A stretch of 64,000 nucleotides of DNA from Mucilaginibacter tolerans (GTDB taxonomy: Bacteria > Bacteroidota > Bacteroidia > Sphingobacteriales > Sphingobacteriaceae): the NCBI RefSeq assembly GCF_030519375.1, contig NZ_JAUMKB010000025.1:1-64000 (forward strand), read 5' to 3'. Positions 26,151 to 31,070 of the stretch are shown here, piece after piece (position 1 is the stretch's first letter; the number at the start of each line of letters is the position of its first letter). The notes under the pieces were generated by a model. That model did not search any database and was not told the origin of the DNA. It worked only from the letters and a program-made list of their open reading frames with translations. Made by a program: the position numbers and the translations under genes.

Positions 26151-26921
26151 TCAAAGTCTAATTGCCTTTACAAACTCCGGTATCTTCTCCAAGTAATTCT
26201 CAGTCTCCAAAAACTTCACAAACGCACTGCCAACAATAGCGCCACGGGCATATTCACAAGCTTTTGTAAAGGTTTCGTTGTTGGAAATACCAAAACCAAT
26301 TACTGCCGGATTTTTCAGTTGCATGGATTTAATGCGTTTGTAATAATCCTCGATAGCATTGGATACCTGAAGGTTTTTCCCAGTGATGGATGAGGAAGAC
26401 AACAGGTAAATAAAGCTATTGGTCAGGCCGTCGATCTTTCTGATGCGGTCCTCAGATGTTTGCGGGGTAACCAGGAAGATATTGCTCAGGCCATTTTCAG
26501 TGAAGTATTTGGAGTACAAAGCTTCATATTCATACATCGGCAAATCGGGTACGATGACACCATCCACTCCAACTTCAGCTGCTTTTTTGCAGAACCTTTC
26601 GATACCATACTGAACCATAGGGTTTACATAACCCATTAACAAGATAGGTATGCTGATACGCTTGCGTAAATCTTTCAGCTCTTCAAACAATTGGTTTAGG
26701 TTCATTCCATTTTCCAACGCCTTTTCAGAGCTATGCTGAATGGTAGGGCCATCAGCAACCGGGTCCGAATATGGGAAACCTATTTCCAGGAAATCCACAC
26801 CCGCTTTTTCCAATGATTCCGCAATGTCAAGCGTTGTATTCAGTTCTGGATACCCCGCAGTAAAATAGATGGATAACAGGTTATCTTTTTTTGATTCGAA
26901 GAGTTTGTTCAGTCGGTTCAT
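26151..26921 (-). CDS. trpA: Tryptophan synthase alpha chain
   Basis: Cleaves indole-3-glycerol phosphate to indole, which passes to TrpB; 256 residues. The ATG at 26921 was chosen over an in-frame TTG nine bases upstream. The catalytic glutamate is in FLEIGFPYSDPVADGPTIQ and the catalytic aspartate in GVIVPDLPMYEYEAL; the phosphate-binding part is VIGFGISN and GAIVGSAFV. It is the last gene of trpDFBA and is separated from trpB by 77 bases of short repeats, wider than the other gaps in the operon, so the trpA level could be set separately. Confidence 0.96.
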   Translation of the reverse strand: MNRLNKLFESKKDNLLSIYFTAGYPELNTTLDIAESLEKAGVDFLEIGFPYSDPVADGPTIQHSSEKALENGMNLNQLFEELKDLRKRISIPILLMGYVNPMVQYGIERFCKKAAEVGVDGVIVPDLPMYEYEALYSKYFTENGLSNIFLVTPQTSEDRIRKIDGLTNSFIYLLSSSSITGKNLQVSNAIEDYYKRIKSMQLKNPAVIGFGISNNETFTKACEYARGAIVGSAFVKFLETENYLEKIPEFVKAIRL

Positions 26922-26925
26922 TTTG

Positions 26926-26998
26926 GTCAATAGTCAATGGTCAATAGACCACAGTAAAACAAAAAGACCATGGACTATCGACCATGGTCCATGGACAG
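26926..26998. repeat. TCAATGG / ACCATGGAC repeats between trpB and trpA
   Basis: GGTCAATAGTCAATGGTCAATAG shows three near copies of GTCAATAG/GTCAATGG, then after a short spacer GACCATGGAC, CGACCATGGTCC and ATGGAC. GACCATGGTC-type words are self-complementary, so a hairpin can form within the operon between trpB and trpA. Confidence 0.65.
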
Positions 26999-28180
26999 TT
27001 AATATCCGAAATATTTAATATATGTACTCAAATCCTTATCCCCCCTGCCCGAAATGCAGATCACTACATTATCATCGTTTTTAAAAGTCATCTTTTCTAA
27101 ATAGGCCAGCGCATGTGCTGTTTCTATAGCCGGGATAATTCCTTCAAGTTGCGAGCACAATAAACCTGCTTGCAGAGCTTCGTCATCAGTGATATTTACA
27201 TATTGCGCACGCTTTATTTTGTATAAATGGGCATGCTGCGGACCGATTCCCGGATAATCCAAACCCGCCGAGATAGAATAAGGTTCTACTACCTGTCCAT
27301 CATCAGTTTGCATTAGAATAGTACGACTGCCATGCAAGACCCCCTCACGGCCTAGGAAAGTTGTAGCTGCTGAGTGCCCGCTTTCTACGCCCTTCCCTGC
27401 GGCTTCAACTGCGATCAACTGAACAGATTCATCATCCAAAAAATGGTAGAACATTCCCATCGCATTGCTGCCACCGCCCACACAGGCCATTACATATTGA
27501 GGTAATTCATTTCCGGTATGCTCCAATAATTGCTTTTTTGTTTCCAGTGAAATGATCGATTGGAACTGCGCCACCATCTCCGGATAAGGATATGGCCCCA
27601 CAACCGAACCAATAATATAATGCGTATCAACCGGGTTATTGATCCAGTCGCGCATAGCCTCGTTCGTAGCATCCTTCAATGTTTTACTGCCTGATGTAGC
27701 CGGAACCACCTTTGCGCCCAGCATTTTCATACGCGAAACGTTTGGCGCCTGGCGTTCCATATCCACCTCACCCATATATACTACGCATTCAATACCCATT
27801 AAAGCGCAAACAGTCGCAGTAGCCACACCATGCTGACCTGCACCGGTTTCAGCGATGATTCGTTTTTTACCAAGGCGGCGCGCCAGCAATATCTGCCCGA
27901 TAGCGTTATTAATCTTATGTGAACCTGTATGGTTCAGGTCCTCGCGCTTGAAAAATATATTGGCACCATATTTCTCAGAATATCTTTTTGCCGGATATAG
28001 TGGTGAAGGCCGACCTACATAGTCCCTTAAAAGCTGATCAAACTCAGCCTTAAACCCAGGATCATTAAGTATCTGGACATATTGCTGTCTTAGTTCTTCC
28101 ACATTAGGATACAGCATTTCGGGGATATAAGCCCCGCCAAAATCGCCGTAATACCCGTGCTCGTTAACTCCGTATTTCAT
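26999..28180 (-). CDS. trpB: Tryptophan synthase beta chain
   Basis: PLP enzyme that joins indole with serine to give tryptophan; 393 residues. The PLP lysine is in [18 protein letters not shown], the activating glutamate is in [13 protein letters not shown], and the phosphate loop is [27 protein letters not shown] and [13 protein letters not shown] are standard. The length and the 28-residue start ([20 protein letters not shown]) are those of the TrpB1 type that pairs with TrpA. It overlaps trpF by 4 bases. Confidence 0.97.
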
Positions 28181-28791
28181 CGTAATAGTTCGAATGCGTT
28201 TTTTAATTTTTCAATATCTTTTAATCCCGGTTCAATTTCAAAGCGACTGTTCAGGTCAACTCCATAAAATTGAGGGTGCTTGATCGATTTCACCTCCTCC
28301 AGATTATCCATGCCCAGTCCCCCGCTTAAAAAGAAAGGGACATCCAGTTCGTATTTATCCAGTAATGACCAGTCAAAGCTTTTCCCAGAGCCGCCATGCT
28401 TATCTGTTTTGGTATCGAACAGAAAAAAGTCGACACTACCAACGTACGGATTCAGTCTTTCAAAATCAAAATCCCCGTCAATACCAAAAGCCTTCAGCAC
28501 AGTTACATCGCCTTTAAATCTTGCGCAAAAATCAGGGTCTTCATTACCATGCAATTGAATCGCATCAAAATGATATTTGTCGATCAACTGGTCTATCGTT
28601 TCTGCCGTCTCATTGACAAAAACAGCTGTCTTAGCAATTGTTTCGGGCACAACAGCCAATACTTCATCATCCAGTTCGGCAGCAAAACGCGGTGAAGGCG
28701 CATAACAGATAAACCCAACATAATCAGGCTTAAATGCTGCAATGGCTTCAATATTGTCCCGGTGTTTCAGTCCGCATATCTTTATCTGCAT
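28177..28791 (-). CDS. trpF: Phosphoribosylanthranilate isomerase
   Basis: Amadori isomerisation of phosphoribosylanthranilate in tryptophan synthesis; 204-residue TIM barrel. The general-base Cys is in the opening [11 protein letters not shown], with the general acid Asp in [30 protein letters not shown] and [17 protein letters not shown] bind the phosphate. Its ATG shares one base with the trpD stop (TAATG) and its stop overlaps trpB by 4 bases, so the three genes are translationally coupled. Confidence 0.95.
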
Positions 28792-29783
28792 TAGTTGCTG
28801 CTGATCAATGTTTTAAAACTGTTTAATGCTCTCTTGCTCAACAAAGCCCCATCGGCCTCATAAAAGCAGTCGCCAAATGTTCTCTCTGGATGAATTGTCT
28901 TAATGGCCAAAGCCGCATTACATATCACTACATTGTTCTGAGCAGTAGTGCCATCTCCATTTAACACATTCATAAATATATCTGCCGATTCTTTCACAGT
29001 ACTCCCCCCTCCTATCTCTGCCGGATCAAGTCGTTCAAAACCCAGACTTTCAATGCTGTTGATTCTCTCACCTTCGGCAGAGAACGTTTTGAAGTCGCCG
29101 GTTAATGATATTTCGTCATAACCATCCAATGCATTCAGGATAGTGTATTTTACATCTGATTTCTGATACAGATAGGCATATATACGAGCTAATTCCAGGT
29201 TAAATACCCCTACCATCTGGTTCTTTGGTTTGGCTGGATTCACCATCGGCCCCAGCATGTTAAAGAAGGTTTTTACACCCAACTCCCTTCGTATTGGCGC
29301 GACCGTTTTCATTGCAGGGTGAAATAACGGTGCATGCAGAAAGCATATATTGGCTTTATCAATGCTCCGGTTGAGTTTATCGCTTTCATTAGTAAACTGA
29401 TAACCCAGAAATTCCATCACATTGGATGAGCCACAGCCCGATGATACACCATAATTACCATGTTTAGCTACTTTATACCCTGCACCTGCCACAATAAATG
29501 AGGCGAGTGTAGAAATATTAAAGGTATCCTTTCCGTCTCCTCCTGTTCCGCAAAGATCGACTAACTCATTTGTCTCCAGGTTAGCAGGCAAACACAAGTC
29601 AAGCATTGCGTCCCGGAAGCCTTCCAACTCATCAACCGTAATTGTACGCATGCAATAGGCTGTCATAAATGCCGCCATTTGCGAATTATTATATTTTCCC
29701 TGCGCAATGCTGGTCAAAATTTCCTTCGACTGTTCGCGGGTAAATGTTTTATGCTCAAATAAATGGTTTAATATTGCTTTCAT
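28791..29783 (-). CDS. trpD: Anthranilate phosphoribosyltransferase
   Basis: Transfers phosphoribosyl from PRPP to anthranilate; 330 residues. The ATG at 29783 (MKAILNHLFEHKTFTREQSKE) was chosen; the open frame further upstream runs through the attenuator terminator and is not coding. The PRPP loop is DLCGTGGDGKDTFNIST, followed by KHGNYGVSSGCGSSNVMEFLG and the NMLGPMVNPAKP loop. It is the first structural gene of trpDFBA. trpE, trpG and trpC are not in the window, so the pathway genes are split and this part has its own leader control. Confidence 0.95.
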   Translation of the reverse strand: MKAILNHLFEHKTFTREQSKEILTSIAQGKYNNSQMAAFMTAYCMRTITVDELEGFRDAMLDLCLPANLETNELVDLCGTGGDGKDTFNISTLASFIVAGAGYKVAKHGNYGVSSGCGSSNVMEFLGYQFTNESDKLNRSIDKANICFLHAPLFHPAMKTVAPIRRELGVKTFFNMLGPMVNPAKPKNQMVGVFNLELARIYAYLYQKSDVKYTILNALDGYDEISLTGDFKTFSAEGERINSIESLGFERLDPAEIGGGSTVKESADIFMNVLNGDGTTAQNNVVICNAALAIKTIHPERTFGDCFYEADGALLSKRALNSFKTLISSN

Positions 29784-29796
29784 GCTAATAGCTAAT

Positions 29797-29878
29797 AAAA
29801 AAGGGCTGCCTTGTGGCAACCCTCTTGTATATATCATTTTTAAACAAACACGGGACTGCCTTACGATTACTCGTTAAG
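29797..29878 (-). promoter_or_regulatory. trp attenuator: competing hairpins and intrinsic terminator
   Basis: Reading the minus strand: a 1:2 hairpin CTTAACGA-GTAA-TCGTAAG (29878-29860, seven pairs, one bulged A) just after the Trp codons of the leader. Segment 2, GGCAGTCCC (29860-29852), can instead pair with segment 3, GGGTTGCC (29822-29815), as an antiterminator. Segment 3 also pairs with segment 4, GGCAGCCC (29810-29803), with loop ACAA, followed by TTTTTT (29802-29797): an intrinsic terminator ending 14 bases before the trpD ATG. A ribosome stalled at the Trp codons would cover the 5' arm of 1:2 and free segment 2, while one at the stop would cover segment 2. This is the classical ribosome-mediated layout. 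Confidence 0.88.
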
Positions 29879-29911
29879 CCACCACCAATTGTTGTTTAAT
29901 ACTTTATTCAT
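29867..29911 (-). CDS. trpL: trp operon leader peptide
   Basis: A 14-codon frame, MNKVLNNNWWWLNE then TAA, with three consecutive TGG codons (29887-29879). It begins about 12 bases after a promoter box and ends inside the loop of the first attenuator hairpin. Trp is the rarest residue in proteins, so three in a row directly upstream of the trp genes and a terminator are very unlikely by chance. Known trp leaders of enteric bacteria use the same logic with two Trp codons. The peptide itself is not expected to have a function after translation. Confidence 0.88.
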   Translation of the reverse strand: MNKVLNNNWWWLNE

Positions 29912-29923
29912 GGTCTTGTGTGA

Positions 29924-29954
29924 CAAATATGGAAATAGTTTTTACTAAAAGCAA
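29924..29954 (-). promoter_or_regulatory. Promoter of the trp operon (TTG-N20-CATATTTG)
   Basis: On the minus strand TTG (29954-29952), 20 bases, CATATTTG (29931-29924): seven of eight matches to TAnnTTTG with correct spacing. Transcription would start about 9 bases before the leader ATG. It is divergent from the KirBac gene. Confidence 0.6.
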
Positions 29955-30098: not shown

Positions 30099-31070
30099 AT
30101 GGCTATCCACAAACGTAAATTTAATCCCGAAGATGACCTTGGATTTGGCACGCAGCCTGTTCTCAAAAATCAGCCGCTCATCAGGCAGGATGGATCAGTC
30201 AATGTAAAACGCAAAGGTCTACCATTTTATAATACCGCAGATAATTACCATAAGCTGATTACCATGAGCTGGGGCAAATTCTGGCTGATTGTATTGTGTG
30301 GCTACTTGATTATTAATACTTTATTTGCTTTTATTTACCTTTTTATAGGTGTACAAAACCTTAACGGGGCTGAAGGAGCCAACACCTATCAGCATTTTTG
30401 GGACGCTTTTTTCTTTTCAGCGCAAACTATTTCGACAGTTGGCTATGGGCACATCAGTCCAAAGGGGATGGCCGCAAACAGTGTTGCTGCCTTAGAATCT
30501 ATGATGGGATTGCTCGCCTTTGCTCTCGCTACAGGTTTATTATACGGCCGTTTTTCAAGACCAACAGCCAAAATCGTTTACAGCCAAAACCTATTGATCT
30601 CACCATATAAAGATGGAGGTAAAGGAATTATGTTCCGGCTCGCCAACTTACGCCGCAGTACGCTGATAGATCTTCAAATGGAGATCACATTTTCTTATAA
30701 TGAAGATGTCGACGGAAAAAAGGTGAGAAGGTTCTTCCCGCTCGAACTGGAAAGGAAAAGGGTAAGCATACTAACTTTAAGCTGGACCGTTGTGCATCCG
30801 CTTGACGAAAACAGTCCGTTGAAAGATATTACTCTTGATGATTTAAAAAACTCTCAGGCAAGTTTTGCCATCTTATTAAAGGCGTTTGATGATACTTTTT
30901 CGCAAACAGTACATTCACGAACATCCTATCAATGTGAACATTTGGTATGGGACGCCAAATTCAACCCGGCATTTGACCGCGAAGAGGATGGCAGGATTGT
31001 ATTAGATTTGAGCAAGATCAGTGATTTTTCAAAACTGGAGCCGAGTTTAACGCAACAGAGCCCGGCTTAA
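30099..31070 (+). CDS. Inward-rectifier-type potassium channel (KirBac family)
   Basis: 323-residue inner-membrane potassium channel. A cytosolic N-terminus with a slide helix (NTADNYHKLITMSWGKFWLIVL) leads into TM1 (about 60-83), a pore helix with selectivity filter TVGYG (113-117) and TM2 (about 130-150). The C-terminal half is the Kir immunoglobulin-like cytoplasmic domain (VYSQNLLISPYKDGGKGIMFRLANLR, then SILTLSWTVVHPLDENSPL, ending VWDAKFNPAFDREEDGRIVLDLSK). These phrases match KirBac1.1 and 3.1. It is convergent with the mce gene with only one base between the coding ends, so no separate terminator exists there. Confidence 0.94.
   Translation: MAIHKRKFNPEDDLGFGTQPVLKNQPLIRQDGSVNVKRKGLPFYNTADNYHKLITMSWGKFWLIVLCGYLIINTLFAFIYLFIGVQNLNGAEGANTYQHFWDAFFFSAQTISTVGYGHISPKGMAANSVAALESMMGLLAFALATGLLYGRFSRPTAKIVYSQNLLISPYKDGGKGIMFRLANLRRSTLIDLQMEITFSYNEDVDGKKVRRFFPLELERKRVSILTLSWTVVHPLDENSPLKDITLDDLKNSQASFAILLKAFDDTFSQTVHSRTSYQCEHLVWDAKFNPAFDREEDGRIVLDLSKISDFSKLEPSLTQQSPA

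Follow-up and report, generated by a model that had tools for sequence, protein, structure and literature searches.

A conserved tryptophan attenuator of the Bacteroidetes kind predicted ahead of trpDFBA in Mucilaginibacter tolerans, and a separate Trp leader ahead of trpE

In the trp attenuator of E. coli, the Trp codons of the leader overlap pairing segment 1, the pairings 1:2, 2:3 and 3:4 exclude each other and the stop codon lies between segments 1 and 2. Its Rfam family is RF00513 (Trp_leader). The abstract of a 2004 survey by Vitreschak et al. reportedly mentions Bacteroidetes/Chlorobi, and a prediction of such a leader earlier than 2010 is likely. A Trp leader RNA of Bacteroidetes is RF01692, 'Bacteroid-trp', which Weinberg et al. 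2010 (PMC2864571) list under this name in a table and which was mentioned ahead of the trp operon of Flavobacterium psychrophilum in 2019 (PMC6414381). The element analysed here lies on the minus strand of the window, that is, the whole stretch of 64,000 nucleotides of Mucilaginibacter tolerans DNA under study, directly upstream of trpDFBA. Judged from its sequence, it appears to be a real, conserved Trp attenuator of this known Bacteroidetes kind, and its mechanism is predicted to be classical. It has the same logic as the E. coli trp attenuator, but the promoter is of a different type and the element precedes trpD rather than trpE. RF00513 gave no gathering-score match in the window and was absent among the 24 matches to E = 10 around the element.

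The comparison with RF01692 gave a match at 29931-29815 with 42.7 bits, which in a search of the whole 5.2 Mb genome (32 contigs) was the best of 3 places at E <= 10 (E 0.0024, full length, model positions 1-131). Because this falls short of the gathering score of 49 bits, the element was filed as a below-threshold relative and not as a member of the Rfam family. The AUG and UGG codons of the model are in register with the window leader, and the element stands upstream of tryptophan biosynthesis genes, as expected for the family. The model stops at segment 3, without the 3' half of the terminator, and the element here has its place ahead of trpD. Among the 24 matches around the element at relaxed threshold RF01692 alone was plausible, and no riboswitch, T-box or other known RNA reached the gathering score of an Rfam family anywhere in the window. 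An all-Rfam search of 15 loci (E <= 0.05), of which L006, L018, L094 and L106 hold trpD leaders, did not list RF01692; by our estimate so strict a cut-off would miss a match of about 42 bits in a search of this size, and the result was taken neither as evidence of absence nor as support. The original prediction had called a full attenuator in a Bacteroidota split trp operon noteworthy. That point is weaker than thought, as RF01692 has been known since 2010; what was not found described in the open-licence literature searched is a split operon whose second half is preceded by an attenuator while the first half carries a separate one. No dedicated report of trp attenuation in Sphingobacteriaceae was found in the same literature.

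The promoter, leader, pairings and terminator were read directly in the minus-strand sequence where the prediction had placed them, and the stop codon does lie within the loop of the first hairpin (Table 1). The gap from the T run to the trpD ATG (from 29783) is 13 bases instead of the predicted 14. The hairpin placed just after the Trp codons is there, but segment 1 includes the Trp codons, which can themselves pair with segment 2 (alignment columns 22-28 with 56-65). Folding of the leader RNA, suggested as a check, gave -39.2 kcal/mol, where shuffles gave -26.0 (sd 3.6); it was better than 199 of the 200 shuffles, with one as good. The TGGTGGTGG run is unique in the window, yet at least one was present in 26 of 100 window shuffles, so this run alone is weak evidence. 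The form TTG, 18-23 bases, NANNTTTG, which we take to be the Bacteroidota promoter type, stands ahead of 71 of the 74 leaders aligned below, which are related and not independent, against 11 of 1480 mononucleotide shuffles. A simple consensus scan of the window, which covers sigma-70 promoters only, did not list this promoter. The terminator of the trpD leader was likewise absent from that scan, presumably since its stem may extend into the T run.

Table 1. Features of the leader and of the trp genes behind it, with positions in the window
Feature	Position	Strand	Basis
Promoter: TTG 29954-29952, 20 bases, CATATTTG 29931-29924	29924..29954	-	read directly
Leader peptide ORF MNKVLNNNWWWLNE, 14 codons + TAA; stop 29869-29867	29867..29911	-	read directly
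Three Trp codons TGG TGG TGG, also within pairing segment 1	29879..29887	-	sequence; pairing with segment 2
Segment 1: Trp codons + CTTAACGA (CTTAACGA at 29878-29871)	29871..29887	-	helices on 74 leaders
Loop GTAA of hairpin 1:2, holding the stop codon; TCGTAAG 29866-29860 next		-	read directly
Segment 2: TCGTAAGGCAGTCCC, partner of segment 1 or segment 3	29852..29866	-	folding and alignment
Segment 2 core GGCAGTCCC	29852..29860	-	read directly
Segment 3: GGGTTGCC; with segment 2 the predicted antiterminator, with segment 4 the predicted terminator	29815..29822	-	
Segment 4 GGCAGCCC 29810-29803 + T run 29802-29797: 3' half of predicted intrinsic terminator	29797..29810	-	
trpD, anthranilate phosphoribosyltransferase, predicted first gene controlled	28791..29783	-	TIGR01245 302.7 bits, cut-off 199
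trpF, phosphoribosylanthranilate isomerase	28177..28791	-	best model NF002298 163.6 bits, under cut-off 215
trpB, tryptophan synthase beta	26999..28180	-	TIGR00263 591.6 bits, cut-off 392
trpA, tryptophan synthase alpha	26151..26930	-	TIGR00262 241 bits, cut-off 102

The best models for trpF all scored under their cut-offs. The genes trpE, trpG and trpC, which had been noted as missing, are indeed away from this locus, but they are present elsewhere in the genome with a Trp leader of their own: trpE and trpC stand together on another contig with trpG between them. The TrpE protein scored over the Pfam cut-off and under that of the best NCBIfam TrpE model (419 vs 517.7 bits). A divergent gene upstream of the attenuator (30099-31070, plus strand) showed weak matches to potassium channels (24 bits, cut-off 300).

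The conservation of the leader was analysed in a same-genus set and a family set, which we took as Mucilaginibacter and Sphingobacteriaceae. A trpD match was present in 18 of 19 same-genus genomes, own genome included, the exception (G009) being 58% complete. By eye, trpD is preceded in all 18 of these loci by a terminator and by a leader in which two or three Trp codons follow one another (two in L004 and L015). In several relatives, as in the window genome, 5-13 bases separate the terminator from trpD; at L005, L009, L010, L011 and L013 there are 93-118 bases, in which inverted repeats rich in C and G were noticed by eye. The named loci were the 80 best of 588, and 59 of them have a Trp leader ahead of trpD. 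In 18 of the other 21, trpG is directly upstream of trpD and there is no Trp leader, apart from a chance WW ORF 451 bases upstream at L144. The remaining three (L125, L130, L134) have neither Trp leader nor trpG directly upstream of trpD; at L130 and L134 trpE and trpG are farther upstream, the locus sequence starting inside trpE, and L125, with no leader within the 600 bases scanned upstream of trpD, is an exception. The same detector found leaders in 60 of the 80 real upstreams (the 59 and L144) against 52 of 4000 shuffled ones, and three TGG in a row in 57 of 80 against 0 of 4000.

At E <= 0.01 a model built from trpD leaders (R1) had a match in 22 of 25 genera and in 187 of the 201 family genomes, some of which may have served in its training; the gene following the match was checked at the fetched places. 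Twenty places from 20 genomes were fetched: trpD follows in 19, while one runs off the contig, and 19 have a consecutive-Trp leader, L177 reading W-L-W instead. RF01692 matched 26 of 101 family genomes (E <= 0.01), 4 of them over the gathering score, and by eye all 26 places, including these four, overlap R1 places. The results suggest that this Bacteroidetes Trp leader, little discussed in the literature searched, spans most of the sampled Sphingobacteriaceae, mostly under the Rfam threshold. The prediction had pointed to relatives as a comparison; in these the Trp codons and hairpins are kept, so relatives lacking both were not seen.

The pairing was analysed on 74 leaders, the 59 named ones less 3 duplicate contigs (56) plus 18 same-genus ones, which form 73 distinct rows; the structure was set from what RNAalifold gave for 18 leaders. 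In this structure 1:2 and 3:4 together are paired in 92.4% of cells, against 26-51% when slid. Both sides are changed in 72 cells, compared with 25.5 (sd 3.7) in shuffles and 6-13 in slid versions, and the covariation score is 0.289 against 0.219 in shuffles and 0.037-0.096 in slid versions. The pairs changed on both sides number 7 vs 6.3 in shuffles (reached by 199 of 500) and the further pair types 25 vs 25.6 (reached by 398 of 500), these two being the covariation measures that relatedness inflates least. One Pedobacter group (L106 and the like) was seen by eye to be misaligned by a base in 1:2, which lowered the counts. As read from the alignment, 1:2 and 3:4 are supported by compensating changes on three of the five measures. 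The two helices of segment 1 are paired in 90.3% and 88.2% of cells. The pairing 2:3 is present in 88.6% of cells against 20-52% slid and 87.7% in shuffles, none of the 500 shuffles reaching it. Its covariation score is not above that of shuffles (reached by 134 of 500), and its cells changed on both sides number 4, a count exceeded by four of the six slid versions. Our reading is that segment 3 varies so little because both 2:3 and 3:4 depend on it. The exclusive pairings 1:2, 2:3 and 3:4 are all kept on the 74 leaders.

The most strongly kept part is the 3:4 helix, paired in 98.0% of cells, and this would fit a Trp-independent terminator with an incidental ORF, which would lower expression or insulate trpD from upstream transcription. 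Such a terminator was considered improbable: the 74 aligned leaders keep the Trp codons, the leader frame and helix 1:2, and the Trp leader is absent ahead of trpD at the 18 trpG-trpD loci described above, the chance ORF excepted. The element has the features of the attenuator class, namely a conserved leader ORF with Trp codons, exclusive pairings and a terminator of hairpin and T run. It is very probable, on the evidence of sequence comparison, that a ribosome-mediated transcription attenuator controls trpDFBA via charged tRNA-Trp.

From this arrangement we infer the start of transcription, stalling, termination and the response to tryptophan as follows. RNA polymerase would start just upstream and a ribosome would translate the leader peptide. 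With ample Trp-tRNA, the ribosome at the stop codon in the 1:2 loop would cover segment 2, and after it has gone 1:2 would re-form; either way segments 3 and 4 would pair and transcription would end before trpD. With scarce Trp-tRNA, the ribosome would stall at the run of three TGG codons, which itself belongs to segment 1, leaving segment 2 free to pair with segment 3, so that no terminator would form and trpDFBA would be transcribed. For trpEGC the same logic would apply at their own Trp leader, which is distinct from the one ahead of trpD.

The effect of the ribosome was analysed by constrained folding: the nascent RNA was taken as far as segment 3, no pairing was allowed for bases covered by the ribosome or lying behind it, and the ribosome edge was set at +13. 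Without a ribosome, 13 of 74 leaders had at least 4 expected pairs of 2:3, their free RNA already favouring this pairing. With the ribosome stalled on Trp the number was 73 of 74 for each of the three positions, and with the ribosome at the stop codon it was 0 of 74. The absence of 1:2 under the mask follows by construction, while the presence of 2:3 does not. When stalled at Trp, segment 3 pairs upstream by a median of 7.45 bases against 4.75 with shuffled spacers, of which 57 of 1480 attain the value of their own leader. The predicted masking logic was thus reproduced by constrained folding, but its stop-codon part depends on the assumed ribosome footprint. Blocking at the stop codon requires an edge of at least +12; 2:3 was still formed there in 19 of 74 leaders with a +8 edge and in 15 of 74 with a +10 edge, the window leader giving 7.9 and 5.6 pairs, respectively. 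According to Korolev et al. 2016 (PMC4833913), the footprint extends as far as 12 nt beyond the stop codon.

The same paper reports that leader ORFs of Bacteroidetes peak close to the gene, at 11-14 bp, which would suit translational or re-initiation control, the leader ORF tuning the translation of trpD instead of termination. Here 83 nt lie between the leader stop and the trpD ATG, a distance that rises to as much as 471 nt in some Pedobacter, with the terminator and sometimes long inserts between leader and gene, whereas attenuation needs at least 40 bp according to that source; control of this type was judged very improbable. Scarcely credible is an action in trans of the leader peptide or a short leader RNA, besides or instead of the action in cis, as reported for peTrpL of Sinorhizobium meliloti (PMC7298713): the peptide LNNNWWWLNE around the Trp codons is unusually constant within the genus, but the flanking residues vary widely across the family and the nucleotide constancy is largely accounted for by pairing.

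The attenuator ahead of trpDFBA has a counterpart on the other half of the pathway. The second Trp leader, which precedes trpE on the minus strand of L033 in this genome, reads MIKTNKNTSWWHHENGVRIYFW and has a G+C-rich terminator; its sequence differs from that of the trpD leader and R1 gave just 17.8 bits. When folded (L038), it formed 2:3 when Trp-stalled and none at the stop codon, as in the trpD leader; in contrast to the latter, the free RNA too favoured 2:3, with 6.2 expected pairs. A WW leader precedes trpE at all 18 same-genus loci, whose genomes are those that also gave the 18 trpD leaders. At least 4 pairs of 2:3 were formed in 18 of these 18 when stalled, 0 of 18 at the stop codon and 9 of 18 free; the free state of the trpE leaders is therefore less clear. 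A leader with TGG-TGG or TGG-NNN-TGG was found at 24 of 28 further family loci (two same-genus), these 28 being the new ones among 30 fetched from 50 genomes with a match, compared with 12 of 1400 shuffled upstreams. The four misses (L190, L191, L192, L204) showed a terminator-like hairpin before trpE and no such leader; the sensor may possibly have been lost or changed in these two genera.

The relation of the two leaders was analysed with R1. Of the 21 named loci that lack a Trp leader ahead of trpD, 14 were scanned; a plus-strand match was present in 9 and missing in 5 (L125, L128, L129, L130, L134). In all 9 the match and a Trp leader stand ahead of trpE, with trpG and trpD behind, and in these relatives with trpE-trpG-trpD together the scores were 22.5-40.7 bits. 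On 25 trpE loci (E <= 1), 14 of the 18 same-genus leaders were matched at 16.9-27.2 bits, with no match for L050, L053, L054 and L055; the six class-level loci gave 45.1 (L057), 41.2 (L061), 25.5 (L058) and 17.5 bits (L060), with no match for L056 and L059. These scores lean towards the trpD leader being nearer to the ancestral form, but the evidence is mixed and shared constraint could do the same. A tentative account is that a split of the trp operon in an ancestor of the Sphingobacteriaceae might have duplicated the attenuator, the trpD copy keeping the Bacteroid-trp form and the trpE copy diverging, with set points that may differ. If this is so, each half, trpEGC and trpDFBA, would be under its own ribosome sensor of tRNA-Trp. 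The arrangement suggests that a split pathway can keep its halves in step with one attenuator on each, and split and unsplit relatives offer a natural test of the fate of an attenuator when an operon breaks up.

Some further observations were made in the course of these searches. In Fulvivirga marina (L131:147-430), a tandem attenuator appears to stand ahead of trpE, with the leaders MKNNSLNNAWWWHYTKTW and MRTLIYINKVWWWHFSHIGE in series and a separate terminator-like hairpin and T run behind each. In a class-level relative (L058:1408-1518, minus strand) there is a weak match to the Rfam Phe_leader (34.9 bits, gathering 55, E 0.05), which is antisense to trpE around its start. In the own genome R1 had one strong place (104.6 bits), the next best scoring 32.1 bits. 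Two candidates for further copies of the element (C7 59296-59484 and C22 310931-311068) were rejected as terminator-like hairpins in which no Trp leader was seen. The former (G000:C7:59296-59484; L216, L218) has a similar stem, AGGGTTGCCAAC..., with weak R1 matches on both strands.
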